DNA of 64,000 nt from a virus: IMG/VR virus record IMGVR_UViG_3300027782_000058, positions 1 to 64,000 of that record, one strand, 5' to 3'. Positions 2,237 through 33,583 of the stretch are shown in pieces. Numbering within the stretch: position 1 is the first letter of the stretch; the number at the start of each line of letters is the position of its first letter. The notes under the pieces were generated by a model, which ran no database searches, was not told the DNA's origin, and saw only the letters and a program-made list of their open reading frames with translations. Position numbers and translations under genes: made by a program.

Positions 2237-2247
2237 AAAAAATCTTT
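2237..2247 (+). repeat. AAAAAATCTTT element, copy 1
   Basis: Exact copy in the 142-bp gap between holin and terminase-like gene, preceded by GG. This gap otherwise holds only a weak AT-rich promoter-like stretch. Confidence 0.8.
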
Positions 2248-2353
2248 ACGACGCCATCGAGAAGTTGGACCGGGTCGTGCGGGAAAAACTCCCCACGGCC
2301 CGGTCGCTTCAGTTTTGTCGGGCAAAATTTTTATTGATTGGTACATTTGACCC

Positions 2354-3265
2354 ATGTCTGAACTGGTGTACGGCGGCGAGCCCGTCGAAGAGGGAGCAGG
2401 CGAGCCCGTCGTCGAGGAGCCAATCGACACTCGACCCGATCTGGCAGCCATCGGCCTGCCCGAGATCGAGCGAGGGGTGTGCGAGGACACCTACGAGAAC
2501 CGTGCTGCCCTTCGTCGAGCGAAGTTGCAATGGCAGCCGGTCTATGATAGTTTTGGTAACCCGACCGGACTGATCGCGGCACGGTCCCCGGAGGCGATGA
2601 AGGAGCGACGGATCCAGTCGCTCGCCGAGAAGCGACCGCTGCTCGTCGACCCGAAAGACATGAACTCGGATTATGTCACCGGGCTCGACCTACTGGTCGA
2701 CGAGGCGGCATGCCGTATCGCGCCACCGTGGGTGGTCGGTGCGACCAAGGGGTGGCAAGCCGAGCAACTGGCAGGCGGACCGTCGAGTGAGCGGCGTGCG
2801 CCGAAGGTGCTCCCGACCCGATGCCGCGTGATCAAGTCAGACGGTATCCGCTGCATGCTGTGGGCATCGGGTCGTCATCAGGATGACGGCATGTGCCGAG
2901 TCCATCTACGGTCTGCCCGTAAACCGGGCGAGGACATCGAGCGGGCACGGAAGAAGATCATCCAAGCCGCACCGTACGCGGTGGATGTCCTCGAAGAGAT
3001 GATGGAAACCGCTGTATCTGAGCCGGTTCGGCTCAAGGCTGCAACGGAGATCCTCGACCGTGCCGGAGTTCGAGGCGGCATGGAGATTGACATGGGCGTC
3101 GAGGTGACGGATGCGCGGCCTGCCGCTCAGGTCGTTGCCGAACGGCTGGCCCGTCTTGCTGCAGGAGCCGTGACCGTCGAGGCTGCCCAGCACAAAACGG
3201 ACAATCAGGACGAAGTGATCGATGCCGAGGTCGTTGAGATCGAAGAAGGAGAACTCGATGCGTGA
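2354..3265 (+). CDS. Probable terminase small subunit-like protein
   Basis: 303 residues. The N-terminal 60 are acidic; the middle has a Cys/His cluster (CRVIKSDGIRC, then a spaced Cys and His) that could bind zinc. Residues about 205-240 carry the pattern ALEEMM...SEPVRLKAATEILDRAGVRGG, common in actinophage small terminases and related DNA-binding proteins. The C-terminus is acidic. A small terminase would recognise the packaging site and recruit the large subunit, but no large subunit is in this window, so the call is moderate. Alternative: another phage DNA-binding protein. Confidence 0.5.
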   Translation: MSELVYGGEPVEEGAGEPVVEEPIDTRPDLAAIGLPEIERGVCEDTYENRAALRRAKLQWQPVYDSFGNPTGLIAARSPEAMKERRIQSLAEKRPLLVDPKDMNSDYVTGLDLLVDEAACRIAPPWVVGATKGWQAEQLAGGPSSERRAPKVLPTRCRVIKSDGIRCMLWASGRHQDDGMCRVHLRSARKPGEDIERARKKIIQAAPYAVDVLEEMMETAVSEPVRLKAATEILDRAGVRGGMEIDMGVEVTDARPAAQVVAERLARLAAGAVTVEAAQHKTDNQDEVIDAEVVEIEEGELDA

Positions 3266-3428
3266 AGAAATCGAAGAGATCGCGAACTTGGCAGCCGTGC
3301 TCGTTGAGGAACTTCAGTCCGACATCGAGTTGTGCAAGACAAGAGAAGAGCATATTCGGATGACGGCACGGACGAACGCTGCGACCAATCTTGTGCGCCT
3401 TCTCGACCTAGCGGCCTCGCGGATTTGA
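3258..3428 (+). CDS. Small coiled-coil-like protein
   Basis: 56 residues, ATG inside the 3' end of the preceding gene (8-nt overlap) with GAAGGAG upstream. Glu/Leu-rich helical composition throughout. Probably co-translated with the terminase-like gene. Not recognised. Confidence 0.6.
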   Translation: MREEIEEIANLAAVLVEELQSDIELCKTREEHIRMTARTNAATNLVRLLDLAASRI

Positions 3429-3433
3429 CTGTA

Positions 3434-3484
3434 GGTTGTTTCTTTGATATGATGCATGCTATGCATCAGATCAAAGAAACAACC
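3434..3484 (+). repeat. 51-bp near-perfect inverted repeat (24-bp arms, 3-nt loop)
   Basis: Left arm 3434-3457 and right arm 3461-3484 are complementary at 23 of 24 positions, with loop GCT; the one mismatch is at arm position 16. The inner part reads GATGCAT-GCT-ATGCATC. It starts 5 nt after the stop of the preceding gene and has no T tract, so it is not a standard intrinsic terminator. Candidates: RNA-processing or stability stem, protein-bound cruciform, or replication site. Confidence 0.85.
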
Positions 3485-3588
3485 GTACTTGGGACCTAAG
3501 CCCTTTTTCTAATCGGGGTTACACTCGAATTGACGGCAAGCGACAACGCAATGCCTACGCTGAGGCGCGGGGGGACCGGAGGCATGAG

Positions 3589-3762
3589 ATGCCTGATCTA
3601 TTTATTTCAGTTCTAGTCCTAATGACAGTCGTTCAATCCACGCTGTGCGTGGTGATGATTACGTCGATTGCCGTGAGTGAATATCGGTACTTTCATTTGG
3701 CAAGCACAATTCATCACAAGGAAAACGTGCATGCTGCAGAGGAAGCCAAAAAAAATTTTTAG
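3589..3762 (+). CDS. Small single-pass membrane protein
   Basis: 57 residues, ATG preceded by GGAGG 6 nt upstream, a strong site. Residues 4-28 are hydrophobic (LFISVLVLMTVV...), followed by a polar His/Glu/Lys-rich tail, so the topology is probably N-terminal anchor with cytoplasmic tail. Stands alone between the 51-bp hairpin and the lipoprotein gene. Function unknown. Confidence 0.6.
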   Translation: MPDLFISVLVLMTVVQSTLCVVMITSIAVSEYRYFHLASTIHHKENVHAAEEAKKNF

Positions 3763-3847
3763 CGGCACGGGCTGTTCATATCGAGTGCATCACGCTATGG
3801 TGTAAGTGAGTGCCTTAGAGCACTTCAAATACACAACGGAGGAAACG

Positions 3848-4279
3848 ATGTACAAGACCAAGATCGGCATGGCCGTGGGCCTAGCCGCTGCAGCACTCGT
3901 GCTTACGGCCTGCGGGTCGGGAAGCGGCACGGCCTCGACCGTGACGGTAACAGCGACCGCTGCAGCACCCGCACCCGCTCCTGCACCCGCACCAGCGGAG
4001 ACGGTAGACAGCGGCTCGGTCAAGGATGCCGCGTACATCGCGCTTCTTCGCAGTAAGGGCAACTCGTACGTCGACTCTGCAACGGACGAGAAGTTGATCG
4101 AACTCGGACACTCGGCGTGCGACGTATTCGATAGCGGCACGACCGTGCGCGAGTACGCCGTGTACTTCGTGAAGGAGTACCCGAACAACGAGGAGATGCG
4201 AACATTCGCCGCGTACCTCGGCGGTGCGGCGGTGGCCGCGTACTGCCCGGAGTACCAGTACCAGATTGATGCCCTCTAG
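3848..4279 (+). CDS. Lipoprotein, DUF732-like
   Basis: 143 residues with a lipoprotein signal peptide: MYKTK, hydrophobic helix, lipobox LTAC. A low-complexity Ala/Pro linker (PAPAPAPA) follows, then a domain with YIALLRSKG...DEKLIELGHSACD and a later Cys near the C-terminus, the layout of mycobacterial DUF732 proteins. GGAGG precedes the ATG. Phage-encoded cell-surface lipoproteins can change the host envelope or exclude superinfecting phage; that role is inference. Confidence 0.75.
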   Translation: MYKTKIGMAVGLAAAALVLTACGSGSGTASTVTVTATAAAPAPAPAPAPAETVDSGSVKDAAYIALLRSKGNSYVDSATDEKLIELGHSACDVFDSGTTVREYAVYFVKEYPNNEEMRTFAAYLGGAAVAAYCPEYQYQIDAL

Positions 4280-4281
4280 TC

Positions 4282-4629
4282 ATGGACGATCCACGGATCC
4301 GGGTTGGATCGGACGCGCTGCTGGACTCTCATCTGCCCGGCATGCCGTTGTCCGACATCCAACCCCGAATCGTGGAACGGGCAGGCAAGGATGCCGAGAC
4401 CGTGATTGATGCGCTCGACCGACTTCGCCTCGGCGAGGGAAACTCCTTCGAGCGCGATGTCGAGCGGCTGCTCGCAGCGACACGGATGAGACTGCTCGAA
4501 GACATCCTCGACCGATTGAAAGACGAGATGTCAAAGGTTGCTGACAGCGAGCGGTACTCGCACCTCGAACCCGGAATCCGATGGTCTTTGGAGATCCTCA
4601 CGGACCGGGTGATCGGCGTGGGCAAGTGA
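4282..4629 (+). CDS. Hypothetical protein
   Basis: 115 residues, starting two bases after the lipoprotein stop, so probably in the same operon. Mostly helical, charged, no Cys and no membrane segment; a long amphipathic stretch covers residues 40-95. Its stop overlaps the GTG of the next gene. Family not recognised. Confidence 0.7.
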   Translation: MDDPRIRVGSDALLDSHLPGMPLSDIQPRIVERAGKDAETVIDALDRLRLGEGNSFERDVERLLAATRMRLLEDILDRLKDEMSKVADSERYSHLEPGIRWSLEILTDRVIGVGK

Positions 4630-4931
4630 AGGTTGCGGTCTACTGGATGCGAGCAGGCTCGGATAACTGCCGCCGCTTTACGCTCTCCGATGAGCACGAT
4701 CATTACGAGATCCTCAGTCGACTCGTCGAGGAGACCGCTGCCTGCAGCGGCCCGCTGTATGACAAGGTCTCACCGATGCCTGAAGTCGAGGGCGGCTCGG
4801 GACTGCAGGAACGGGACTTAGTCAGACTTGACGACACTCTCTACGAGTTGAAGTCTCGAACGGAGTTCGTCTCTGCCTTCGATCAAACCGCGTACTTGAA
4901 ACCGATGACGGTCGACGACGACTTGACCTGA
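4626..4931 (+). CDS. Hypothetical protein
   Basis: 101 residues from a GTG overlapping the previous stop (GTGA). Acidic, with two cysteines and no recognisable motif. The overlap indicates coupling to the upstream gene; an ATG at 4581 lies deep inside that gene and is less likely. Confidence 0.65.
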   Translation: MKVAVYWMRAGSDNCRRFTLSDEHDHYEILSRLVEETAACSGPLYDKVSPMPEVEGGSGLQERDLVRLDDTLYELKSRTEFVSAFDQTAYLKPMTVDDDLT

Positions 4932-4958
4932 GTAAGATCTCTATGATACAAATGATCC

Positions 4959-5270
4959 ATGTTCACTATTCTGCTATTTGGCAAGGCGTGGGAGATCAAC
5001 GAGCGCCTGAAGGGCGAGGACGACAGCGCCGGGTCCGTCGTGTTCCTCGCCTTCTTAGCGCTGATCTTCGTTTGGCCAGTGCTACCGGCACGGCTGCTCT
5101 ACCACGCGGGCATGTCTCAAAAGGTAGCCCTCTTGGTGACGGTGATCCCCGGAGCCATCTTTGCTCTACTGTCAATCGGTCTCTATCTGGCTGTCGGTCT
5201 GGTGGTGGCACTTATCGCTGTCATCGGAGCGACCTGCTACATGACGTGGACTAGCGGCTCGGAGGATTGA
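4959..5270 (+). CDS. Three-helix membrane protein
   Basis: 103 residues. Hydrophobic segments at about 28-45, 53-72 and 75-95; short charged stretch (INERLKGEDD) after the first residues. A TATGAT -10-like box at 4942-4947 lies just upstream, so the message may have a very short leader. A competing frame from 4943 is Arg/Gly-rich and lacks this pattern. Could be a second holin-like or envelope protein; not recognised. Confidence 0.65.
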   Translation: MFTILLFGKAWEINERLKGEDDSAGSVVFLAFLALIFVWPVLPARLLYHAGMSQKVALLVTVIPGAIFALLSIGLYLAVGLVVALIAVIGATCYMTWTSGSED

Positions 5271-5294
5271 CACACGGATTTAGATCTGTACTAT
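5267..5294 (+). promoter_or_regulatory. Promoter for the 5332 gene
   Basis: TTGACA 5267-5272, 16-nt spacer, TACTAT 5289-5294. It overlaps the stop of the upstream membrane protein. The predicted transcript begins near 5301, which rules out the in-frame ATG at 5293 as the start. Confidence 0.65.
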
Positions 5295-5331
5295 GAAACG
5301 AAATGACACCCACCGAAGTGAGGAAGCAGAC

Positions 5332-5508
5332 ATGAGCAATTCCAAGAAAGTGACGGAGGCACGGCAGGCGTGGATGGAGACCACCACCGCGCTGATGGCA
5401 AGCGGCACGGATGAGAACCGCGAGGCGGAGATGAAGGCATGGGCCGCTCTTCAGGCCGCAGTGTCTTCGTACTCTGAGAAGAACGGCCATGTCGACGACG
5501 GAGTCTGA
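5332..5508 (+). CDS. Small helical protein
   Basis: 58 residues; ATG with GAGG upstream and its own sigma70-type promoter. Ala/Glu-rich helix, no motif recognised. Overlaps the start of the next small gene by 20 nt. Confidence 0.65.
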   Translation: MSNSKKVTEARQAWMETTTALMASGTDENREAEMKAWAALQAAVSSYSEKNGHVDDGV

Positions 5509-5629
5509 GCGCGAACGATGGTGGTTTCACTTCTGCCGTTTGTGCGATAACACGTTTAGCAGCCGATCCGAGATAGAGTTCTGCAGAGTCTGCAGCATCC
5601 AAACCATTAGCGCGGAGGTACCGCTATGA
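5489..5629 (+). CDS. Small zinc-ribbon protein
   Basis: 46 residues with two CxxC knuckles, FCRLC and FCRVC, 15 residues apart, the minimal set for one structural zinc. The stop overlaps the ATG of the glycosyltransferase (ATGA), so they are coupled. Likely nucleic-acid or protein binding; partner unknown. Confidence 0.6.
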   Translation: MSTTESERERWWFHFCRLCDNTFSSRSEIEFCRVCSIQTISAEVPL

Positions 5630-6369
5630 ACCCGAACGAAAAGGTTGTCGTCGGATATGTCGACAACGGAGTCACACGCGGCCCGTTCGCACATGACCTG
5701 TTCCTGATGGGCGCGTCCCGAGCGGATCGGTTCGCCGGGATCGTGAACGAGTGCGACAACCTGATCGCTCGTGGTCGGAACCGCATGGTAAAAAATTTTT
5801 TGGCAAGCGGCACGGCTGAGTGGCTGTTCATGCTTGACGCCGACCAGCGGTTTTACCTCGAAGCGTTCGACTTGCTCATCAGTGCGGCGGACGCCAAGGA
5901 GCGGCCTGTCATCTCCGGGCTGTACTTTGCTGCCAACGACACTGGCGAGTTGTACCCGTTGCCGATGCCGACGATTTACATGAGGAACGAAGAGCATTCC
6001 TTTCATGTGATCACGCATTACCCGGAGAACGCGGTAGTCCAGATCGACGGTGCGGGCGCGGGATTCATGCTCGTGCATCGATCCGTGTTCGAGAAGATCG
6101 CTGAGCAGGCTGGACCTGAATACCTCGACCGCTGCTGGTTCCGTGACTACCCGCTGCCCGATGGTGACGGATGGTTCGGCGAGGATCTGTACTTCTGCAA
6201 CATGGTCCATGATGCCGGGTTCAACATGTACTGCCACACTGGAGCCACGTCTCCGCACATCAAGTCGTACGCGGTGACTGAAGCGCACTTCCTGAAGTTC
6301 CGCGACTTCTTCGATTCACAGGGGATCAAGTCCGAGTTCCAGAAGCGACTTGACAACGGCACGGATTAG
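5626..6369 (+). CDS. Glycosyltransferase, GT-A fold
   Basis: 247 residues. A short beta-rich N-terminus precedes ARGRNRMVKNFLASGTAEWLFMLDADQRF, where LDADQ is the DxD-type metal and nucleotide-sugar motif. GAGAGFMLVHRSVFEKI and a later GEDLYFCNMV segment match phage GT-A family 2-like enzymes. It would transfer a sugar from a nucleotide donor to an unknown acceptor: modified DNA, a virion protein or the host surface. GCGGAGG ribosome binding site upstream of the ATG. Confidence 0.75.
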   Translation: MNPNEKVVVGYVDNGVTRGPFAHDLFLMGASRADRFAGIVNECDNLIARGRNRMVKNFLASGTAEWLFMLDADQRFYLEAFDLLISAADAKERPVISGLYFAANDTGELYPLPMPTIYMRNEEHSFHVITHYPENAVVQIDGAGAGFMLVHRSVFEKIAEQAGPEYLDRCWFRDYPLPDGDGWFGEDLYFCNMVHDAGFNMYCHTGATSPHIKSYAVTEAHFLKFRDFFDSQGIKSEFQKRLDNGTD

Positions 6370-6379
6370 TAGGTAAGGT
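6350..6379 (+). promoter_or_regulatory. Promoter for the 6410 operon
   Basis: TTGACA 6350-6355, 18-nt spacer, TAAGGT 6374-6379, straddling the glycosyltransferase stop. Followed by a GGGAGA ribosome binding site before ATG 6410. Confidence 0.6.
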
Positions 6380-6409
6380 CGTACCTCGACCACTACTCAG
6401 GGAGACGAA

Positions 6410-9505: not shown

Positions 9506-9561
9506 CTAGAAAAACAGCCGGGGCAGGCTTGGAAAACTTGCCCCGGCTTTTCTAGTTTTTT
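9506..9561 (+). terminator. Intrinsic terminator after the 9287 gene
   Basis: Nested stem CTAGAAAA...AGCCGGGGCA / TGCCCCGGCTTTTCTAG, then TTTTTT. CTCCCTAG (9502-9509), the reverse complement of the start-associated sequence, forms its left edge. Confidence 0.9.
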
Positions 9562-9581: not shown

Positions 9582-9592
9582 AAAAAATCTTT
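9582..9592 (+). repeat. AAAAAATCTTT element, copy 2
   Basis: Exact copy 20 nt after the terminator's T tract, with GG before and GCGACGCC after, flanks close to copy 1. Confidence 0.85.
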
Positions 9593-10041: not shown

Positions 10042-10052
10042 AAAAAATCTTT
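10042..10052 (+). repeat. AAAAAATCTTT element, copy 3
   Basis: Exact copy, 17 nt before the next TTGACA, the closest spacing among well-formed copies. Confidence 0.85.
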
Positions 10053-10768: not shown

Positions 10769-10779
10769 AAAAAATCTTT
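10769..10779 (+). repeat. AAAAAATCTTT element, copy 4
   Basis: Exact copy with GG before and GCGC after, between the terminator and the GP88 promoter. Confidence 0.85.
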
Positions 10780-12314: not shown

Positions 12315-12325
12315 AAAAAATCTTT
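12315..12325 (+). repeat. AAAAAATCTTT element, copy 5
   Basis: Exact copy; flanks GGG and ACGACGCGG resemble copies 1 and 2. Confidence 0.85.
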
Positions 12326-12877: not shown

Positions 12878-13216
12878 GTGAGTGTTCGATTCGAGAAGCG
12901 AGTGGTCGAGGTTGTCTCCGAAACCATCGAGAACGTGGCGGTGCTGGATGGCACGAACGCCGAGGAGTTGATCGAGCGCATGAACACCGCGCGCGCCGCT
13001 GCTGCCAAGATGAAGGAAGAGGCAGACGCTGCTCGCGACGCGCTCGTCGCGCTGATGGGCGGTGCCGAGACTGGCACCATCGGCGGTGTGGACCGCGTGA
13101 AGATCAAGATGATCGAGCGCGAGGGTACGAACCGCGACCTGCTCGCGGAGGCTTACCCCGAGGCGTACGAGGCTACGCTGACCACCACCACCTACCCCCG
13201 AGTCACCACCAAGTGA
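12878..13216 (+). CDS. Coiled-coil protein resembling the C-terminal part of YqaJ-type recombination proteins
   Basis: 112 residues from GTG 12878. Residues 30-60 form an Ala/Glu/Lys coiled coil. The rest, ALMGGAETGTIGGVDRVKIKMIEREGTNRDLL followed by AEAYPEAYEAT, is arranged like the tail that follows the nuclease core in YqaJ/RecB-type phage exonucleases. No nuclease motif is present, so this would be an accessory piece or a convergent small protein. Assignment is tentative. Confidence 0.6.
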   Translation: MSVRFEKRVVEVVSETIENVAVLDGTNAEELIERMNTARAAAAKMKEEADAARDALVALMGGAETGTIGGVDRVKIKMIEREGTNRDLLAEAYPEAYEATLTTTTYPRVTTK

Positions 13217-13224
13217 CCCGAGGA

Positions 13225-13256
13225 GGGCGGGGTCGGGAGAAATCCCGGCCCCGTCC
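13225..13256 (+). terminator. Terminator hairpin after the 12878 gene
   Basis: 14-bp stem (GGGCGGGGTCGGGA with its complement, two G-T pairs), loop GAAA; short TT tail. Confidence 0.75.
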
Positions 13257-13283
13257 TTCCGCGTTTTGAGCGCGGGCCGCAGG

Positions 13284-13294
13284 AAAAAATCTTT
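13284..13294 (+). repeat. AAAAAATCTTT element, copy 6
   Basis: Exact copy preceded by AGG; 38 nt before the next -35. Confidence 0.85.
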
Positions 13295-13900: not shown

Positions 13901-13911
13901 AAAAAATCTTT
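13901..13911 (+). repeat. AAAAAATCTTT element, copy 7
   Basis: Exact copy preceded by CCGG, between the terminator and two tandem promoters. Confidence 0.85.
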
Positions 13912-18010: not shown

Positions 18011-18913
18011 TTGAGACTAATCGAAGTACACACAGACGACTACCGAAACTGGGTATTCGACACGTCGCACCCTACACAGGGGCGACGGTTCATCAAGGCG
18101 CACGAGCGGCTGCACGACCTCGCGGCAGGGCAAGGTGTTGATGTCAAGACCATCGAGTCTGACTATGTGCCAGACTTCCGGGTGATGCGGCTCGCGCATA
18201 GCGAGAGGTACATCGCTGAGGTGCTTGACGGGTACAGTGGCGAGTGGTCCGGACAGGACGAGGATCTCGGCATGCTCGCCCTCAGAATGTGCGGAGGGAC
18301 TCAACTGGCTCTTGACGCACTGCTGAGCGAGCGAGGTGTCTATCGGACTGCGGTCCACTTCCCCGGCGCGAAGCATCACGCGCAGTTCTCGCACTCAAGC
18401 GGGTTCTGTGTATTCGCTGACTTTGCCATTGCCGCGATCCGTGCGACGCAACTCGGCCTGCGAGTGGCGATCCTCGATATCGACGCGCATCACGGTGACG
18501 GCACGGAGAACCTGACGTATTCGAATCAGAGCATCCTGACGTACTCGATCCATGACGGGACGATCTTTCCCGGCACGGGTCACTACTCGGTGCCAAGCCA
18601 GCGGGTCTACAACGCTGCACTGGAAGCCGAGGCAGGGGATGCTCAACTTCACGAGAACGTCGAAGAGTTCATCCGGCTTGCCGGTGAGTTTAACGCTGAC
18701 TTGCTCATGATCGCGATGGGTGCCGATGGCCTGCGTAACGATCCTCTCTCTACGCTGACCTACAGTATTGGCGGGCTGACCCGCGCGGTCGCACTCGTTC
18801 GGTCGGAGTTCCCAGAACATCCGATCCTGCTCGGAGGAGCGGGCGGGTATCAGCCGGATACCGAGACGCCGGAAGTCTGGGCACAGATGGCAATCGCCGC
18901 GACCACCGGGTGA
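18011..18913 (+). CDS. Histone deacetylase / acetylpolyamine amidohydrolase family hydrolase
   Basis: 300 residues from TTG 18011 (GGGAAG upstream). All class I/II deacetylase hallmarks are present: His dyad H122-H123 in GAKHHA, SSGFCVFAD, zinc ligands D158 and H160 in DIDAHHGDG, third ligand D239 in MGADGLRNDP, and transition-state Tyr280 in GGY. The enzyme should remove acetyl groups from lysine or a polyamine using zinc. In a phage the target could be acetylated host or phage proteins; this is inference. It follows a zinc-ribbon gene in the same transcript. Confidence 0.85.
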   Translation: MRLIEVHTDDYRNWVFDTSHPTQGRRFIKAHERLHDLAAGQGVDVKTIESDYVPDFRVMRLAHSERYIAEVLDGYSGEWSGQDEDLGMLALRMCGGTQLALDALLSERGVYRTAVHFPGAKHHAQFSHSSGFCVFADFAIAAIRATQLGLRVAILDIDAHHGDGTENLTYSNQSILTYSIHDGTIFPGTGHYSVPSQRVYNAALEAEAGDAQLHENVEEFIRLAGEFNADLLMIAMGADGLRNDPLSTLTYSIGGLTRAVALVRSEFPEHPILLGGAGGYQPDTETPEVWAQMAIAATTG

Positions 18914-18975
18914 GCGAGAAAAAAAGTTTGGTGTCGCACTTCATCGCACTGTGGAAAACTCGATCCGATCTCGAC

Positions 18976-19390: not shown

Positions 19391-19401
19391 AAAAAATCTT
19401 T
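19391..19401 (+). repeat. AAAAAATCTTT element, copy 8
   Basis: Exact copy, but preceded by CC instead of GG. Confidence 0.8.
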
Positions 19402-19918: not shown

Positions 19919-20071
19919 ATGAGCAAGAAGCAGAAGAAGGTCAAGGACATGTTCGTCGTGGCCCGTGCGGGTTACGTTCAGGACCAGAAGGTTCAGGTGT
20001 TCGCGCACCGGAACACCAAGCGCGCGAAGACGCGCGCCGCCCAGAAGGCCCGCGCCCTCACCGAATGGTGA
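19919..20071 (+). CDS. Small very basic protein
   Basis: 50 residues, over a quarter Lys/Arg (MSKKQKKVKD start; NTKRAKTRAAQKARA). Probably binds nucleic acid; could be a histone-like or RNA-binding peptide. No family recognised. Confidence 0.7.
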   Translation: MSKKQKKVKDMFVVARAGYVQDQKVQVFAHRNTKRAKTRAAQKARALTEW

Positions 20072-20116: not shown

Positions 20117-20127
20117 AAAAAATCTTT
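20117..20127 (+). repeat. AAAAAATCTTT element, copy 9
   Basis: Exact copy with AGG before, 36 nt ahead of the non-coding RNA promoter. Confidence 0.85.
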
Positions 20128-20163
20128 GGACTCCGGGTCAGTCGGCTCGCTTACGATCAAGAG

Positions 20164-20192
20164 TTGACAAGACTCAGGAAGTATGCTTAAAT
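20164..20192 (+). promoter_or_regulatory. Promoter of the non-coding RNA
   Basis: TTGACA 20164-20169, 17-nt spacer, TTAAAT 20187-20192. No start-associated sequence follows, unlike at the protein-coding units. Confidence 0.75.
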
Positions 20193-20198
20193 AGCACT

Positions 20199-20408
20199 AT
20201 CAACAAAGCACAACCCCGCACCGTGACCCCTTCGGGGGAGACCGCCACACAAGCAGGGTGCATGAGGTTCTAGGACAGAGATGCACCGCTCCCATAGCGC
20301 GCTGGTTGCGCGACATGTGCAAGACGAGCAAGAGCATGGTAGGTGGGTTCGATTCCCGCATGGGTGGCTGGAAAAACTGGGCAGTGATCCTGTCCAGTTT
20401 TTCCTTTT
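20199..20408 (+). ncRNA. Candidate structured non-coding RNA with a tRNA-like T arm
   Basis: A promoter at 20164 and a strong terminator (GGAAAAACTGG 20370-20380 / CCAGTTTTTCC 20394-20404, then TTTT) delimit about 210 nt with no ORF over 60 codons of natural composition and no start-associated sequence. Predicted stems: GACCCC-TTCG-GGGG; GGTGCAT/ATGCACC; CGCG-CTGGTTG-CGCG, like a D arm; and GTGGG-TTCGATT-CCCGC, an almost canonical T arm. CTCCCAT and ATGGGTG could form an acceptor stem with one T-T mismatch. The anticodon region does not fold properly and lacks U33, so this is a tRNA-like or degenerate tRNA RNA at best. Confidence 0.55.
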
Positions 20409-20420
20409 GGGGGAGGAAGG

Positions 20421-20431
20421 AAAAAATCTTT
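20421..20431 (+). repeat. AAAAAATCTTT element, copy 10
   Basis: Exact copy 17 nt after the non-coding RNA terminator stem; GG before, ACTC after. Confidence 0.85.
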
Positions 20432-21122: not shown

Positions 21123-21136
21123 TCCCCAAACAAACA

Positions 21137-21158
21137 GCCCCGCTTAGGCGGGGTTTTT
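21137..21158 (+). terminator. Intrinsic terminator after the 20955 gene
   Basis: CCCCGC-TTAG-GCGGGG then TTTTTG. Confidence 0.85.
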
Positions 21159-21186
21159 GTTGTTCCGAGGTGATGTAGGGCAGCAG

Positions 21187-21197
21187 AAAAAATCTTT
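21187..21197 (+). repeat. AAAAAATCTTT element, copy 11
   Basis: Exact copy; a single G before it, ACTC after as in copy 10. Confidence 0.85.
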
Positions 21198-21749: not shown

Positions 21750-21938
21750 ATGATCAACGTAATCGACGAGAAGATGACCTCCAGTGGCAACTGGGCCGGT
21801 ACTTGCACCGAGTGCAAGGAGATCGTCACCGGAATGGACGACTTCGACGAGGACCGTGGCTGGATGTTCATCGGATGGTTCCACGAGGGACAGAGGTCAA
21901 CCTCCAAGTGGGATCCCTGTCCTCGAAAGGGGGCCTGA
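21750..21938 (+). CDS. Small Cys-containing protein
   Basis: 62 residues. CTEC in the first third and a single Cys near the end (WDPCPRKG); three Cys plus a His could hold zinc. Acidic centre (DDFDEDRG). Unknown role. Confidence 0.65.
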   Translation: MINVIDEKMTSSGNWAGTCTECKEIVTGMDDFDEDRGWMFIGWFHEGQRSTSKWDPCPRKGA

Positions 21939-21958
21939 AGAGTCGGTATGATGGCTAG

Positions 21959-22120
21959 GTGGAGATAGACATCGTTGACACATACGGATGGCTCGAACAC
22001 GGAGTCTTCCTGTCTATGACCACAGAAGAGTTGGCAGAACTGAGATTCGCTCTCTCGATAGCCTCAGCACATGGAATAAAGATGGACATCATTGACGAGT
22101 TTCTAAGGGTTACAGACTGA
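21959..22120 (+). CDS. Small hypothetical protein
   Basis: 53 residues from GTG 21959. Reads MEIDIVDTYGWLEHGVF then a natural-looking amphipathic helix TTEELAELRFALSIASAHG. The ribosome binding site is weak and no separate promoter is evident, so it is probably in the 21750 transcript. Confidence 0.5.
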   Translation: MEIDIVDTYGWLEHGVFLSMTTEELAELRFALSIASAHGIKMDIIDEFLRVTD

Positions 22121-22150
22121 ACAAACCAAACGACAAAGGAGAAAAAGACA

Positions 22151-22387
22151 ATGCCTGACCTAATGAACGCACCGCCCACCGACCGAGTGATCCTCGCCGT
22201 TACCGCACTTCACATGGAGTGGGAGGCAGCAGACAAGAACTTCACAGAGAGCATGGTGGAGGACACTGCTAAACGCTGGAGCCTGTCTGAGGAAGAGGCT
22301 GAGGACATCGCCAACTTCCTCTGTGAATTCGTCATGGACATGCGGGCTGATGCCGAGGATGATGGATTCGAAGGGGACGAAGACTAA
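22151..22387 (+). CDS. Hypothetical acidic protein
   Basis: 78 residues, ATG after AAAGGAGAAA. Three helices, strongly acidic C-terminus (DAEDDGFEGDED). A possible nucleic-acid mimic, but that is speculation from charge. Confidence 0.7.
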   Translation: MPDLMNAPPTDRVILAVTALHMEWEAADKNFTESMVEDTAKRWSLSEEEAEDIANFLCEFVMDMRADAEDDGFEGDED

Positions 22388-22400
22388 CAAGAGGCGTAAG

Positions 22401-22533
22401 CCGTGAGTGCGCTTGTGCGGGAAAGATGGATATGCTTATGACCCGCTAACCACGGCAGCAGGAGGTGTTGGCGAACTCCCTGCGCTGATCCTGTCGAGAA
22501 GCCCCCGGACTCATACTCCGGGGGTCTTTCGTT
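22401..22533 (+). ncRNA. Structured non-coding segment ending in a terminator
   Basis: GCCGTG and CACGGC (6 bp) enclose GCGGG/CCCGC (5 bp); then GCAGGAGGT pairs with ACTCCCTGC, hiding an AGGAGG; then CCCCCGGA/TCCGGGGG with a 7-nt loop and T-rich tail (22502-22533). TTGTGC with a TTATGA-like -10 near 22414-22442 could be a promoter inside. No ORF. Confidence 0.4.
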
Positions 22534-22562: not shown

Positions 22563-22573
22563 AAAGATTTTTT
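22563..22573 (-). repeat. AAAAAATCTTT element, copy 12 (inverted)
   Basis: Reads AAAGATTTTTT on the top strand, so this copy is inverted relative to surrounding + strand genes. Confidence 0.85.
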
Positions 22574-23003: not shown

Positions 23004-23048
23004 CGTATGCCCGGAGCAGTTAGGAAAATTCTTTGATACACTCGCGGT

Positions 23049-24073: not shown

Positions 24074-24751
24074 GTGATCAAAAATACGGAAAACGCCCTC
24101 GATGACATCATCGAGCGTCGATCAAAGGGAGAGACCCTGCAGTCAATCGCCAACGACTACGGCGTGACGCGGGAGCGAATCCGGCAAATCGCTGGATCGG
24201 ATGCTAGTGCATCGGCTCGGACCCTACGCAAGGAACGACGTGAGCAGAGTCTCGAACGACTCCGGGTTGATCGGGAAGAGGCTCGGATCAAGGCATTGCT
24301 TGCCCCCTACGAGGAGAAGTCAAAGCGTTGGTCAGACGAGGACATTCTTGCTTGCCTGCGTGAGGCTGCCGCTACTGTCGGTGCGGACACAATCTCCATC
24401 AAGAAGTACAACGGACTTGTGCCGCTGATGGATATCCCATCAAGTGCAACGGTTACCCTCAGGTTCAACTCATGGAACGATGCGCTTGAGGCTGCCGGGC
24501 TTAAGGCTGCCAACTCATCGCGGGTTCAGCCTTTCTACAAGCGGGAAGATGCCGTCGCATCTGTCAAGGCGTACCTCGCCGAAAAGTGGGAGTCCGGCTC
24601 GTTGAGCATGGGATCGCAGAAGTACGACGAGTGGCGACTCTCTCAGAAGCCAACTACTCACCCGATTCCGTCTGCTGCCCTCATCGTTCGCCGATGGGGA
24701 TGGGCAAACGTTCGTGCCGAGGCTGCGAGTCAGATGCTCGCCGAGCGCTGA
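24074..24751 (+). CDS. Sigma-region-4-like HTH DNA-binding protein
   Basis: 225 residues from GTG. Residues 10-40 (IIERRSKGETLQSIANDYGVTRERIRQI) match sigma70 region 4.2, which contacts the -35 box. The remainder has two copies of a helical unit ending in W..ALEAAGL or WGWANVRAEA, as in homing-endonuclease-associated DNA-binding repeats. It lacks region 2, so it is not a full sigma factor. It could act as a promoter-specific regulator of the repeated TTGACA units, which is inference. Confidence 0.7.
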   Translation: MIKNTENALDDIIERRSKGETLQSIANDYGVTRERIRQIAGSDASASARTLRKERREQSLERLRVDREEARIKALLAPYEEKSKRWSDEDILACLREAAATVGADTISIKKYNGLVPLMDIPSSATVTLRFNSWNDALEAAGLKAANSSRVQPFYKREDAVASVKAYLAEKWESGSLSMGSQKYDEWRLSQKPTTHPIPSAALIVRRWGWANVRAEAASQMLAER

Positions 24752-26033: not shown

Positions 26034-26204
26034 ATGTCAAAGATTTTTTCCACGTTCCGGCGCGTAGTCTGGTCGTCGGTCCTCGCGGTTCTGCTTTTTC
26101 TCGGTAGTCTCTACGCGGTCCATCTTGGAGACAATCTGCTTACGTTGGCACTTGCCATCGGTGGAAACACGTTTGCACTGCTAGCACTTCGAGCATCCCG
26201 CTGA
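26034..26204 (+). CDS. Small two-helix membrane protein
   Basis: 56 residues, ATG after GGAAGG, 8 nt beyond the previous stop. Two hydrophobic segments (about 12-30, 34-53), basic ends. An inverted AAAAAATCTTT element lies inside its codons 3-6. Holin- or antiholin-like by topology only. Confidence 0.6.
   Translation: MSKIFSTFRRVVWSSVLAVLLFLGSLYAVHLGDNLLTLALAIGGNTFALLALRASR
26039..26049 (-). repeat. AAAAAATCTTT element, copy 13 (inverted, inside a gene)
   Basis: Reads AAAGATTTTTT on the top strand, encoding SKIFS of the membrane protein; the only exact copy I found in a coding region. Confidence 0.8.
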
Positions 26205-27088: not shown

Positions 27089-27144
27089 GCGTCGACCTTA
27101 CTCGTGAATCGTATTCGAAGTCGAGCGAGCGGGCGGAGAACGAG

Positions 27145-27155
27145 AAAAAATCTTT
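27145..27155 (+). repeat. AAAAAATCTTT element, copy 14
   Basis: Top-strand orientation, although both neighbouring genes are on the minus strand, so orientation does not strictly follow transcription. Confidence 0.85.
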
Positions 27156-27174
27156 ACTCCGCCCGCCGGGCGGC

Positions 27175-29037: not shown

Positions 29038-29048
29038 AAAAAATCTTT
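29038..29048 (+). repeat. AAAAAATCTTT element, copy 15
   Basis: Exact copy with CCGG before and GCC after. Confidence 0.85.
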
Positions 29049-29464: not shown

Positions 29465-29474
29465 CTGACTGAGA

Positions 29475-29506
29475 GGGAGGCCCCCACCTACGGGTGGGGG
29501 TCTCCC
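29475..29506 (+). terminator. Terminator after the 29180 gene
   Basis: GGGAGGCCCCCACC-TACG-GGTGGGGGTCTCCC, one mismatch; GTTT follows. Confidence 0.9.
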
Positions 29507-29526
29507 GTTTGTCAGGGGACCCAAAC

Positions 29527-29555
29527 TTGACAGGCAAGGTAGATAGGCGTATTCT
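29527..29555 (+). promoter_or_regulatory. Promoter for the 29596 gene
   Basis: TTGACA 29527-29532, 17-nt spacer, TATTCT 29550-29555; AAGGGAG ribosome binding site at 29582. Confidence 0.75.
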
Positions 29556-29595
29556 TTGAGAGTTGGACTCACCACACAGACAAGGGAGAACCGAA

Positions 29596-29940
29596 ATGAC
29601 GACCACCACCGTCCTCGAACTTGTGGAGGACTACATGCAGGCAATCCGCGAGGCTACGGCCAAGTACTACGCGGACAACTACCACCACCTTCAGCCCCCG
29701 ATGATCTATGCGGAGCCGGGTCGCCGGTTCGCCCGCATCGTGATGGAAGGCTCGAATCAGCGTACGGTCCACGCTTTCGTGGACATGGAGACCGGCGACG
29801 TGATCAAGGCTGCAGGCTGGAAGGCCCCGCAGAAGGACAAGGACGGCCTCGCGGTTCGCTACCACCTCGCCGATGAGGCTGATCGCGCGCGGTGCTACGC
29901 GGCCATCGACCCTCACGGTGGATACCTCTACAAGTGGTAG
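29596..29940 (+). CDS. Hypothetical protein
   Basis: 114 residues. Helix, then GRRFARIVMEGSNQRTVHAFVDMETGDVIKAAGWKAPQ, a beta-hairpin segment, ending in HGGYLYKW. Short proteins with this GDVxKAAxWKxP core and terminal KW are widespread in phages, function unknown. Confidence 0.75.
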   Translation: MTTTTVLELVEDYMQAIREATAKYYADNYHHLQPPMIYAEPGRRFARIVMEGSNQRTVHAFVDMETGDVIKAAGWKAPQKDKDGLAVRYHLADEADRARCYAAIDPHGGYLYKW

Positions 29941-29955
29941 CCCTCACGAAGTACG

Positions 29956-29981
29956 GCCCCCACCTACGGGTGGGGGCTTTT
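29956..29981 (+). terminator. Intrinsic terminator after the 29596 gene
   Basis: GCCCCCACC-TACG-GGTGGGGGC then TTTTCG; same stem as at 29475. Confidence 0.9.
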
Positions 29982-30020
29982 CGTTTTCGCGCGACGGGAG
30001 GACTGGTAACCCTCTCGCCG

Positions 30021-30051
30021 AAAGGCCCTCGCCGAAAGGCGGGGGCCTTTT
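30021..30051 (+). terminator. Second terminator in tandem
   Basis: AAAGGCCCTCGCC-GAAA-GGCGGGGGCCTTTT, 40 nt after the first with no gene between. Confidence 0.85.
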
Positions 30052-30136
30052 CGCGTGCGAATGCGGGCCGGGTGATGGGAGGTGGCGAAACTTTTTTTCC
30101 GGTCATCGCGCGCGAGGTCGCTACGCGCGGGACAAC

Positions 30137-30202
30137 TTGACACTCGGTAGGATGTTCGATAAGGTAGGACTACCGCCCAACCGGGGCGCACAACCTAGGG
30201 AG
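30137..30202 (+). promoter_or_regulatory. Promoter, 5' hairpin and start-associated sequence for the 30208 gene
   Basis: TTGACA 30137-30142, 17-nt spacer, TAAGGT 30160-30165; CGCCC-AACCG-GGGCG hairpin 30174-30188; CTAGGGAG 30195-30202. A variant AT element (AAACTTTTTTTCC) at about 30090 takes the place of the standard one. Confidence 0.8.
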
Positions 30203-30207
30203 TCGAA

Positions 30208-30456
30208 ATGTCCGTCACCACCGTCACCACCTACGCAATCTCCTACACCGCCACTAACCGTAGCGGCGCGGTCCACACCTACGTTCTGTCAGACCTTGAC
30301 ACCGCCGGTATCGGCGAGGTCATCGCTTCCATGTACGCGCAACGGGATGACTGGTACTGCCGCAACGTCACCATTGCCACGATGGGCGGTCAGGTTGTCT
30401 ACACGTTCGATGGCACCCCGCACGCCGCTACCGTGGCGAGCGTTCTCTCTCGCTAG
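30208..30456 (+). CDS. Hypothetical protein, paralogue of the 32773 product
   Basis: 82 residues. YAISYTATNRSGAVHTYVLSDLDTAGIGEVIASMYA aligns by eye with FAIAYTVNTENIVLSGLDSQGLIDAVLYSA of the 32773 protein: strand, turn, GLD/DLD, helix, then VTI/VTV. Function unknown. Confidence 0.7.
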   Translation: MSVTTVTTYAISYTATNRSGAVHTYVLSDLDTAGIGEVIASMYAQRDDWYCRNVTIATMGGQVVYTFDGTPHAATVASVLSR

Positions 30457-30473
30457 TCACGTCCTAGGCCCCG

Positions 30474-30500
30474 GCCCTCACCCTGCGAAAGGGTGGGGGC
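30474..30500 (+). terminator. Terminator-like hairpin after the 30208 gene
   Basis: GCCCTCACCC-TGCGAAA-GGGTGGGGGC; no T tract. Confidence 0.6.
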
Positions 30501-30590
30501 TGGCTGGCTTTCCGGCCCATATCGCCATGCGGCGGGCTAGATACAATGGCTTGACATTCCTTGCGCGCCCTACCCTGCCGGAGGCCCACC

Positions 30591-30761
30591 GTGCCGTTTC
30601 GCACGTCGTGCGAGCAATGCGAGGGAGTCGCCACCGTGCTAGTGGCGGGCGGTCGCGCGCACGCGCAATGCCTGCCGCTGCCGGTGGACTTGACGCGGCT
30701 CGCTGCCATGCCGCGACTTCCGGATGGGATCCCGTGGCGGTGCCCGTGGTGCGGCGCTTGA
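30591..30761 (+). CDS. Small double-knuckle zinc protein
   Basis: 56 residues from GTG, GGAGG 6 nt upstream. CEQC near the N-terminus, one Cys in the middle and CPWC at the C-terminus. TTGACA at 30551 is nearby but its spacing to TACCCT is short, so the promoter is uncertain. Confidence 0.6.
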   Translation: MPFRTSCEQCEGVATVLVAGGRAHAQCLPLPVDLTRLAAMPRLPDGIPWRCPWCGA

Positions 30762-30897
30762 AACTTTTTTTCCTCACCTACGCGCACACGGCAGGACATC
30801 GGGAGTGCTCGGGCTACCGCGACTTCGAGACTTTGCGCGAAAGTCTGCCGTAAGGCTCTCAGACTTGACATGACTTGACGCATAGGGCTCTCATGAC

Positions 30898-30950
30898 TTG
30901 ACAAACGTTCGGATTCGAGTAAACTGGGCACACCGGCCCACAAGGGGCCG
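30898..30950 (+). promoter_or_regulatory. Promoter and 5' hairpin for the 30970 gene
   Basis: TTGACA 30898-30903, 16-nt spacer, TAAACT 30920-30925; CGGCCC-ACAA-GGGGCCG hairpin 30934-30950. Two more TTGAC boxes lie within 40 nt upstream in a GGCTCTCA direct repeat. Confidence 0.75.
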
Positions 30951-30969
30951 CAACCGAAGGGACACCGAC

Positions 30970-31500
30970 ATGACCACCTACGCCCCCCGCACCCGCGTCG
31001 CCCGCCCCGCGACCGACCGTCAGGTTGCGTACGCCGAGGCGCTGCTGCTGCAGGTCACCGGCCCTGACAACTTTGACGAGGCCCGCCTCGCGCTCGCCGA
31101 GCGGGGTGGACTCGCCACGGTTGACGCGGCGTCGCGCACTATCGACGCCCTGCGGACGCAGGCCGCTGCCATGCGGACGCAGGCCCCTCGCGCCGCTGCC
31201 CCTCGCGCCGCTGCCACTGAGGCCCTCGCACTGGGCATGTACCGCCGTGACGGTGAGGTCTACCGCGTAGTCGCCTCGCGGGCCGGTCGCCCGTACGCTA
31301 AGCGCCTTGACCCGGCCACGGGTAAGTTTGACTACGCGGCGGGCGCGATCCGCACGCTCACCGCTGCGGACCGTATGAGCCTCTCCGAGGCTGCCGAGTA
31401 CGGTCGGGCCATCGGTCGGTGTTGCGTATGTGGCGCGACGCTCACCGACCCCGAGTCGGTCGCCCGTGGCATCGGCCCCGTGTGCGGGGGGCGAGTCTGA
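30970..31500 (+). CDS. DUF6011-like zinc-binding protein, paralogue of 26275
   Basis: 176 residues. N-terminal TDRQVAYAEALLLQ module as in 26275, an Ala-rich linker with a duplicated MRTQA unit, central EVYRVVASRAGRPYAKRL strands, and C-terminal CCVCGATLTDPES...GIGPVCGG zinc motif. Duplicated family within one genome; function unknown. Confidence 0.75.
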   Translation: MTTYAPRTRVARPATDRQVAYAEALLLQVTGPDNFDEARLALAERGGLATVDAASRTIDALRTQAAAMRTQAPRAAAPRAAATEALALGMYRRDGEVYRVVASRAGRPYAKRLDPATGKFDYAAGAIRTLTAADRMSLSEAAEYGRAIGRCCVCGATLTDPESVARGIGPVCGGRV

Positions 31501-31515
31501 GGCCCCGAGCGCGAG

Positions 31516-31544
31516 AGGCCCCATCCCTTCGGGGGTGGGGCCTT
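31516..31544 (+). terminator. Terminator after the 30970 gene
   Basis: AGGCCCCATCCC-TTCG-GGGGTGGGGCCTTCG. Confidence 0.85.
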
Positions 31545-31589
31545 CGTCATGTCGTGCGGATCACGCGCGAGCGGCGAGCGGCAGGCGAG

Positions 31590-31600
31590 AAAAAATCTTT
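31590..31600 (+). repeat. AAAAAATCTTT element, copy 16
   Basis: Exact copy, GAG before, GCCC after. Confidence 0.85.
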
Positions 31601-31670
31601 GCCCTGCCCCCGTCGGGCGTGGAGTCGCGAGAGGTCGCGCGAGTGGTGAGATTCCCTTCCGAGATTCGAC

Positions 31671-31736
31671 TTGACATGCCGCACGAGGTACGTCATACTG
31701 GAGGCATGCCGCAAGGCGCGGCAGCACCTAGGGAGG
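31671..31736 (+). promoter_or_regulatory. Promoter, 5' hairpin and start-associated sequence for the 31742 gene
   Basis: TTGACA 31671-31676, 17-nt spacer, CATACT 31694-31699; GCCGC-AAGGC-GCGGC 31708-31722; CTAGGGAGG 31728-31736. Confidence 0.8.
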
Positions 31737-31741
31737 CAATC

Positions 31742-31987
31742 ATGACCGACTACACCACGATCACCGGAACCCGCGAGGGTGTTCGCGCCTACTACTCCGA
31801 GATTGCCCCCGGAGTGTGGGAGGCGGAGATTGAGTGGCAGGACGACTACGCTCGCGGTGTCTGGCACAACGCCGGTTGCGTTACGTTCACCAGTGAGCCC
31901 GACCTCGCCGCCATCGTGAGCGCGGTACAGTCCTACTGCTCCGATCAATACGACCGCGAAATGGAGTACCGCTCCACAAAACACTGA
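31742..31987 (+). CDS. Hypothetical protein
   Basis: 81 residues. Beta-rich (GVWEAEIEWQDDYARGVWHNAGCVTF) followed by a helix PDLAAIVSAVQSYCSDQY. No family recognised. Confidence 0.7.
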   Translation: MTDYTTITGTREGVRAYYSEIAPGVWEAEIEWQDDYARGVWHNAGCVTFTSEPDLAAIVSAVQSYCSDQYDREMEYRSTKH

Positions 31988-31993
31988 CACCCG

Positions 31994-32030
31994 AAAGATG
32001 CCCCGCCCCGAAAGGGTGCGGGGCATCTTT
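31994..32030 (+). terminator. Intrinsic terminator after the 31742 gene
   Basis: AAAGATGCCCCGC...GCGGGGCATCTTT, 13-bp stem with an inner CCC/GGG pair. Confidence 0.9.
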
Positions 32031-32079
32031 GCGTTTGGGATTGACAATCCGGCGCGCGAGGGGCACCGCCGCACCGTGG

Positions 32080-32090
32080 AAAAAATCTTT
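32080..32090 (+). repeat. AAAAAATCTTT element, copy 17
   Basis: Exact copy; GTGG before and GCCC after. Confidence 0.85.
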
Positions 32091-32147
32091 GCCCACGGGG
32101 CGGTCGGGAGTCGCGCGCGGACTGCGAACCATGCCGATGCACTTGAC

Positions 32148-32212
32148 TTGACACTGCCTTAGATCCGAGTAAACTGGGACTACCGCCCCGGCAGGGGGCC
32201 ACACCTAGGGAG
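32148..32212 (+). promoter_or_regulatory. Promoter, 5' hairpin and start-associated sequence for the 32218 gene
   Basis: TTGACA 32148-32153, 16-nt spacer, TAAACT 32170-32175; GCCCC...GGGGC hairpin at 32185-32199; CTAGGGAG 32205-32212. Confidence 0.8.
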
Positions 32213-32217
32213 ACCAA

Positions 32218-32556
32218 ATGTCCACTGTCATCGCCACCGCCACCCCCACGTCCGCCGCTATCTCGGACGGCATCGTGCGGGCAAGTGTCGACCTTATGGG
32301 ACGCAACCGTGAGGGGCGTCAGGAATGGCGCTACAGCATCGCCTGCGAGTCCGAGGCTCAGACTGGCACCGACCTGCGGACGGGAGTTGGGGCCACAGAG
32401 ACTGGCGTCGACATGCTCCGTACCCTCGCGGGATTCCTCGCGGCACACTCCGAGTCCTCCGAGGGCGGCGAGTGTGCGGACCTGTTCGATATCTCGCGAG
32501 AGGCTACGGAGGCCATCTCCGAGGTCATCTACTACGCGGTCGGGTGGGATGCCTGA
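32218..32556 (+). CDS. Hypothetical acidic protein
   Basis: 112 residues. Beta-rich N-terminus, then an acidic helical half with LAGFLAAHSESSEGGECADLFDI. Unknown function. Confidence 0.7.
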   Translation: MSTVIATATPTSAAISDGIVRASVDLMGRNREGRQEWRYSIACESEAQTGTDLRTGVGATETGVDMLRTLAGFLAAHSESSEGGECADLFDISREATEAISEVIYYAVGWDA

Positions 32557-32569
32557 CCCGAACGTTCTG

Positions 32570-32603
32570 AAAGGCCCCGCATCCGAAAGAGCGCGGGGCC
32601 TTT
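32570..32603 (+). terminator. Intrinsic terminator after the 32218 gene
   Basis: AAAGGCCCCGC...GCGGGGCCTTT, perfect 11-bp stem. Confidence 0.9.
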
Positions 32604-32637
32604 CGCATTGCGCGGGGAGCGCGCGCGGTGGAATCGG

Positions 32638-32648
32638 AAAAAATCTTT
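32638..32648 (+). repeat. AAAAAATCTTT element, copy 18
   Basis: Exact copy; CGG before, AGACC after. Confidence 0.85.
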
Positions 32649-32700
32649 AGACCGCCGCCCCGCCCGTCGCCACGCGCCCATCGCCCGGTCCCGATAGAAC

Positions 32701-32752
32701 TTGACAACGCTCGCAGAATCCGGCATACTAGATCCATGCCGCAGGGAGCGGC
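32701..32752 (+). promoter_or_regulatory. Promoter and 5' hairpin for the 32773 gene
   Basis: TTGACA 32701-32706, 17-nt spacer, CATACT 32724-32729; GCCGC-AGGGA-GCGGC 32738-32752; AAGGGAG ribosome binding site. Confidence 0.8.
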
Positions 32753-32772
32753 ACTAATCAAGGGAGACTGAA

Positions 32773-32910
32773 ATGACCTTCGCAATCGCCTACACCGTGA
32801 ACACCGAGAACATCGTCCTGTCGGGCCTTGACTCGCAGGGGCTTATCGATGCCGTGCTCTACTCGGCTCAATACGGCCCCATCACGAACGTCACGGTGTC
32901 GTCCTACTGA
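32773..32910 (+). CDS. Small protein, paralogue of the 30208 product
   Basis: 45 residues: strand (TFAIAYTVNT), GLDSQGLIDAVLYSA helix, then NVTVSSY. Shorter version of the 30208 protein without its C-terminal strands. Function unknown. Confidence 0.65.
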   Translation: MTFAIAYTVNTENIVLSGLDSQGLIDAVLYSAQYGPITNVTVSSY

Positions 32911-32924
32911 CAGGCACCGCGCGA

Positions 32925-32953
32925 GACCCCGGCCCTTACGGGTCGGGGTCTTT
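32925..32953 (+). terminator. Intrinsic terminator after the 32773 gene
   Basis: GACCCCGGCCC-TTAC-GGGTCGGGGTCTTT, one G-T pair. Confidence 0.9.
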
Positions 32954-32968
32954 CGCTTTCTAGGGGGC

Positions 32969-33034
32969 TTGACAACGTGACTCAAACTAGTAGACTGGGG
33001 CTACGCCCCGATACGCGGGGCCTGACCTAGGGAG
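32969..33034 (+). promoter_or_regulatory. Promoter, 5' hairpin and start-associated sequence for the 33040 gene
   Basis: TTGACA 32969-32974, 16-nt spacer, TAGACT 32991-32996; GCCCCG...CGGGGC 33005-33021; CTAGGGAG 33027-33034. Confidence 0.8.
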
Positions 33035-33039
33035 TCACA

Positions 33040-33177
33040 ATGGCCGTTATGACCACAGAGTGGATCTGTTCCTCATGCCGTACCGTGTGGGTGAGTGAGG
33101 ACTACCCGCTTTGCCCGGAGTGCCGCACGGATGAGTGCGCGCTCACGCGCGAGGCGTGGGTTAGGTGGGTACGATGA
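33040..33177 (+). CDS. Small zinc-ribbon protein
   Basis: 45 residues; CSSC and CPEC 12 residues apart form a complete ribbon. Coupled to the next gene by ATGA. Confidence 0.7.
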   Translation: MAVMTTEWICSSCRTVWVSEDYPLCPECRTDECALTREAWVRWVR

Positions 33178-33485
33178 CCACCACCCGCAACGCAAACGCC
33201 GCTATCGCGTCGTGCGAGACGTTCCGCGCGTCGGCCCTGTCGGGAGTCACCACGGTGCCCGGTGCGGGTCGCCTTGACGGTGCCGACCGTGATCGGTTCT
33301 ACGCCGACCGGGACGCTATCGCCTACGCGGTTATGTCCTACGGCACGCCTATCGCGTGGCTCACGCCGCGCGGGTGGCACGTCGTGGGCCAGCGTTTCAG
33401 CGTCACCACTTCACGACACCAGAGCGTCACCTTGCGGGGCGTGCGCGAGTGGTGCGAACGGTCGGGAGTCACTTGCGTTTGGTGA
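33174..33485 (+). CDS. Hypothetical protein
   Basis: 103 residues from ATG overlapping the zinc-ribbon stop. IAYAVMSYGTPIAWLTPRGWHVVGQRFSVTTSRHQSVTLRG is a recurring motif block of short actinophage proteins (strands around a conserved YGTPIAW). Function unknown. Confidence 0.75.
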   Translation: MTTTRNANAAIASCETFRASALSGVTTVPGAGRLDGADRDRFYADRDAIAYAVMSYGTPIAWLTPRGWHVVGQRFSVTTSRHQSVTLRGVREWCERSGVTCVW

Positions 33486-33502
33486 CCCGCTAGCCTCCGA
33501 GT

Positions 33503-33538
33503 GAGAGCCCTGCCCCGTTTGAGGGGGGTGGGGCTCTC
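33503..33538 (+). terminator. Terminator after the 33174 gene
   Basis: GAGAGCCCTGCCCC...GGGGGTGGGGCTCTC with small bulges. Confidence 0.8.
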
Positions 33539-33572
33539 GCCGTTTCGCGCGCGGCGTGCGGGCGCTCGACGA

Positions 33573-33583
33573 AAAAAATCTTT
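33573..33583 (+). repeat. AAAAAATCTTT element, copy 19
   Basis: Last exact copy I found, inside an A7 run, ACCCCCC after it. Confidence 0.8.

Follow-up and report, generated by a model that had tools for sequence, protein, structure and literature searches.

What is the function of an 11-mer that recurs, letter for letter, between the genes of one part of a phage genome? The phage (IMG/VR record IMGVR_UViG_3300027782_000058) is represented by a 91,079-base record that contains the 64,000-nt window, the whole stretch of DNA analysed here. A sequence-only reading had listed 19 exact copies of AAAAAATCTTT, and every coordinate and strand in that list proved correct. The copies all lie at 2.2-33.6 kb, on the plus strand at 2237..2247 (upstream of gene 2354-3265), 9582..9592, 10042..10052, 10769..10779, 12315..12325, 13284..13294, 13901..13911, 19391..19401, 20117..20127, 20421..20431, 21187..21197, 27145..27155, 29038..29048, 31590..31600, 32080..32090, 32638..32648 and 33573..33583, and on the minus strand at 22563..22573 and 26039..26049. 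AAAAAATCTTT is the top over-represented 10-12-mer in the genome; as the earlier estimate of far fewer than one chance copy implied, only ca. 0.009 (about 0.01) copies are expected in the 91-kb record, and 100 shuffles gave no match. Six variant sites fill the same slot, within 1-3 nt of the places given before: AAAAAAAGTTT at 18919..18929 (+), 30088..30098 (-), 30761..30771 (-) and 33981..33991 (-), GGAAAATTCTTT at 23023..23034 (+), and CGAAAAAGTTT at 34536..34546 (+). The two bases 5' of the core are mostly GG (G in 15/19 and 17/19), as had been noted; the GC or AC described on the 3' side stands only in part, the first base being R in 19/19 but the next being C in only 14/19. The extended consensus is GGAAAAAATCTTTRC. 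Relative to transcription, 19 sites are forward and 4 are inverted. Eighteen of the 19 exact copies are intergenic, as claimed; the inverted copy at 26039 lies where two genes meet with no terminator between them, and it overlaps the start of a 56-aa ORF (26034-26204) whose support is weak. No copy occurs between 33,584 and 91,079, the other 57 kb of the record, in keeping with the reported absence from the late operon. This lack is partly due to the scarcity of long gaps, and hence of unit junctions, in the late region, yet the long gaps that do exist there are also without a site.

Gene calls and a reading of all sites confirmed that the repeat sits between terminator and promoter. At a unit junction the stop codon is followed by the terminator hairpin and then by the site; after a spacer of variable length come a TTGACA-type promoter, the CTAGGGAGG ribosome site and the gene, all as called with simple scripts and a home-made hairpin finder. 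Between 9.4 and 34.7 kb there are 20 true intergenic gaps 180 bp or longer, each with an exact or variant site, and shorter gaps seldom have one; the seeming exception, a gap at 21938-22151 without a site, reflects a missed small ORF. Spacing from the upstream hairpin is tight, typically 12-49 nt with a median of 30. Plus-strand terminator hairpins at 9517..9547 (ca. 35 nt from its site), 13222..13259, 20370..20404 and 21131..21159 precede the sites at 9582, 13284, 20421 and 21187, respectively, and one at 22495..22531 (+) precedes the inverted site at 22563, which occupies the same slot. Among the 18 sites in ordinary co-directional gaps, 14 fall 5-45 nt past the best hairpin of an automatic search, a window picked after the distances had been seen, against 4.2 expected if sites were placed at random (0/20,000 simulations). 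The distance to the best -35 is variable, as had been described, over a range of 11-332 nt (mean 82, sd 67; no phasing) rather than about 17-170 nt. Terminators are stronger in site-bearing gaps, both here (p=0.027) and in the relative G040 (p=0.0015), whereas promoter scores in this phage do not differ significantly between gaps with and without a site (p=0.08); promoters also occur in half of the gaps that lack a site. At the convergent junction at 27145 the site lies inside a hairpin (27129-27166) and has no promoter to serve.

Other repeats and units were seen in the same region. The ribosome-site repeat CTAGGGAG(G) is strongly conserved, with 27 copies in the window, is common to this phage and the relative G051, and resembles start-associated sequences. 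A TAACGATTCGRTAACGA-like direct repeat, a possible operator, lies downstream of sites 9582, 12315 and 13901 (at about 9620, 12350 and 13950). The unit at 20128-20410, whose terminator is followed by site 20421, has a promoter and no ORF; it contains a T-arm-like GGTTCGATTCCC, gave no match with ARAGORN or Rfam, and may represent a degenerate tRNA or else a small RNA.

The portal, capsid and tail proteins group this phage with large actinophages, namely Actinomycetia phage DSL-LC01, Gordonia phages GMA2, Forza and GodonK, and Microbacterium phage Pumpernickel, a family of poorly known large viruses of water-dwelling actinobacteria. Near-complete relatives measure 121-136 kb, so about one third of this phage's genome may be missing from the record. 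We found no near DNA match to it among phages and no known RNA family in the window, and a CobT query returned no loci. The window also encodes a histone-deacetylase-fold protein (18011-18913; PF00850, E 8.5e-46) with relatives in G008, G013, G015, G024, G027, G031 and G049, an HNH_repeat protein (24074-24751) whose helix-turn-helix resembles sigma region 4, and a 3121-aa protein in the structural region (39991-49356).

Relatives were retrieved as contigs through the capsid, portal and MoxR proteins; several are fragments, and those within one group are not independent. Nearly all carry a repeated word of their own in the same genome region, a feature that, like the tight terminator spacing, goes beyond the earlier reading. 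In the MoxR-retrieved relatives the words are 9-12-mers, including GGGTAAAAA, GTATTTATTTTT and TATTCATTTTTT; AGGTAAAAAA, AAAAAGTAAAA, GTATCCACTTTT, TACACGGAAAA, GCNTGGAAAA-N6-ACCC and more were found as well, giving at least 12 spellings across the family at 10-30 copies per virus. For about half of the tested lineages, the word lies 5-45 bases past a terminator, as in L438 (10/11), L453 (11/12), L442 (7/7), L448 (7/8), G040 (6/6), G051 (5/5) and L447 (7/8), all with spellings other than AAAAAATCTTT; pooled, 94/145 sites are so placed against 44 expected. Coupling is also clear in G031. It was not significant in G015, G024, G008, G013, L398, L411, L394 and L450, nor in G049 and G002 under a stricter test, and because it is absent from G015, G024, L394 and L450, function may differ there. 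Orientation is locked in L436-L453 and mixed in G049, G008, G015, G024 and G032 (about even in G049, G024 and G032). A second group comprises DSL-LC01, G027, L412 and L413, where the repeat is an extended -10 promoter; DSL-LC01 has ca. 16 copies of this TAAAGATGTTATAAT-type promoter, with no clear -35, at 24.8-43.3 kb. A GACACGCC repeat lies 10-15 nt upstream of the -35 in G032 and is common to several relatives, and TTATGNAATAA-like words occur close to sites in G008, G015 and G049. No comparable repeat was found in 50 kb examined of each of Pumpernickel, Forza and GodonK, and a scan of viral contigs with GGAAAAAATCTTTRC gave single matches only among the matches listed.

The nearest relative found, G051 (75% MoxR identity), is syntenic with the early half of the window and keeps the slots, with the spelling AAAAAATATTT, one base off AAAAAATCTTT; the slot is in this respect conserved, as the earlier reading had proposed to check. 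The two phages also have the minor variant AAAAAAGTTT in common, and a single palindromic AAAAATATTTTT, a spelling that G051 uses, is present at 859-870. At one clear orthologous junction, after gene 12878-13216, both phages have a hairpin and then the site, with C here (site 13284) and A in G051 (AAAAATATTT), between unrelated flanks. After the orthologue of gene 19919-20071, the G051 word is inverted relative to site 20117. The joint change of the copies between the two phages points to a trans-acting partner. Constraint on a related type of site can be seen in G008 and G013 (ca. 91% identical), where 145/147 bases agree in homologous sites and 683/814 in their flanks; this word is different and shows no terminator coupling, so the comparison supports function of such sites generally and not a terminator model.

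We suggest, at a probability of roughly 0.45, that a DNA-binding protein specific to the phage binds the repeat beyond the terminator and there serves as roadblock or insulator, keeping transcription units apart. The word is probably where such a protein lands to keep transcription from running on into the following gene. The protein would recognize its sequence specifically and most likely be encoded by the phage. It would occupy this double-stranded site just past the terminators of short early and accessory units, standing where the front of RNA polymerase is at the moment of hairpin formation; the polymerase would thereby be kept from reading through into the following gene, which has a promoter of its own. 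At a hairpin terminator the polymerase front lies ca. 20-30 nt past the hairpin, and most sites of this phage sit where it would stand. What the sequences show is the repeat itself, its restriction to the boundaries between units, how far it lies from the terminator, the recurrence of the slot with other words in relatives and the constraint on a related site type; a bound protein, its phage origin and its roadblock action are inferred. The orientation bias of this phage is not needed by a simple roadblock and counts against it. Among the four options offered by the sequence-only reading, an accessory element of terminators fits best, with the correction that the units are early or accessory rather than late. 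More tentatively, we extend the proposal to the family: virus-specific post-terminator sites and a fast-evolving cognate protein may insulate single-gene units, with one word per lineage that changes in concert across its copies, and the phages may have drifted to other spellings along with the protein.

The repeat could instead consist of operators or stoperators; a single repressor would then bind every copy and silence the early units, either during dormancy or at a late stage of infection, and the closeness to terminators would be secondary. Like the cluster A sites (PMC9283540, PMC6550527), the copies are numerous, asymmetric, dispersed and spelled differently from phage to phage; most copies of this phage point with transcription, and the promoters of the units lie downstream of the sites. 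A stoperator-like function, one of the options suggested earlier, is compatible, but a cognate cluster A repressor was not found: a RedRock gp74 query returned nothing in 14 records, its positive control being found, and tyrosine integrase (PF00589), ParB_N (PF02195) and ParA-type ATPase (PF13614) were likewise not found, the record of this phage being incomplete. Reversal abolishes stoperator function, and orientation is mixed in five relatives, which would count against this reading; we consider it unlikely. An upstream element of the following promoter, either an activator site or an UP element for the alpha subunit, is improbable. The A-tract/T-tract composition would suit it, AAAATCTTTGC of G044 keeps a constant distance of 40-42 nt to the TATAAT (-10) of the extended -10 promoters downstream of it, the repeat of DSL-LC01, L412 and L413 is the promoter itself, and in L436-L453 the distance from word to start codon is also fairly tight, which would fit such an element. 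In this phage, however, the unphased -35 distances, the promoters in site-less gaps and the site at the convergent junction all oppose it; the earlier statement that the repeat is not an UP element therefore holds here, G044 being different.

That the sites are recombination boundaries at which gene cassettes are shuffled seems very unlikely, even though they bound units of 1-3 genes where gene turnover is high and one small serine recombinase is encoded by each of 7/7 near-complete relatives tested (G008, G015, G024, G027, G041, G044 and G046). In the one close pair comparable, G008 and G013, only 1 of ca. 12 synteny breakpoints lies within 30 bp of a site; inverted half-site pairs, which serine recombinases need, are absent, and at orthologous junctions the site is kept while its flanks are not. 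Least credible is an element of RNA or single-stranded DNA, such as a hairpin, terminator tail or boxA-like signal. Position directly past terminator hairpins and locked orientation in L438, L442, L448 and L453 would agree with it, but the site flanks pair no better than shuffled partners (34/200 permutations), which led us to reject a flank hairpin, and inverted copies in the same slot, including the orthologous gene end inverted between this phage and G051, favour a DNA rather than an RNA element. An Lsr2/H-NS silencer, also raised earlier, fails to explain 19 identical 11-mers or the other words in relatives, and a search for a phage-encoded Lsr2 (PF11774) found none in 14 records; like the recombination-boundary reading, it has little support.

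Candidates for the protein that would bind the proposed roadblock sites were sought directly. Pfam and PHROGs scans of ca. 40 window proteins gave no clear repressor, and in a phylogenetic profile the families co-occurring with one motif type were not DNA-binding-like. WhiB proteins occur widely in the family; the variable spacing disfavours a sigma-tethered WhiB as the partner. The sites of this phage do not fit a DnaA box (TTTTCCACGC type). Dispersed phage-specific repeats are known and few are understood. Here, many relatives with different spellings in one slot should make the partner findable by co-variation, and it would show how a GC-rich phage separates dozens of single-gene units. The words could also serve as signatures for sorting uncultivated actinophages.

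The arrangement can be set beside several known systems. T4 PeSL elements combine a stem-loop and an early promoter in a cassette between accessory genes, and such cassettes have been proposed to shuffle genes at their boundaries; the repeat here is neither stem-loop nor promoter, and in the single pair compared, breakpoints do not fall at its sites. Cluster K and EF phages have start-associated sequences, which are likewise repeated, strongly conserved intergenic words, but they lie at the ribosome binding site, which here is the separate CTAGGGAGG repeat. Microbacterium clusters EC, EG and EI and cluster O mycobacteriophages have phage-specific intergenic repeated motifs, in 5-12 copies in EC, EG and EI (PMC7302621). 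Start codons follow the EC and EG motifs at 14-30 bp, whereas the present sites lie past terminators and upstream of a promoter; the order of site, promoter, leader and ribosome binding site separates them from the start-associated repeats of EC, EG and O. Cluster A stoperators (L5, Bxb1, RedRock), more than 20 short asymmetric intergenic sites whose consensus varies among related phages, are proposed to halt elongation (PMC9283540, PMC6550527), in principle an action akin to the roadblock suggested here. The present site resembles them, being short and asymmetric and scattered between genes in 19 exact and six variant copies; unlike stoperators, it is keyed to terminators and confined to the accessory region, with both orientations in several relatives, and searches for a cognate repressor and lysogeny genes found none. 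The action proposed here would be that of roadblock termination, in which a bound protein (Reb1 in yeast; LacI, CcpA and CodY in bacteria) stops the polymerase (reviewed in PMC10310618); what sets the present sites apart from known roadblocks is their placement just past hairpin terminators.
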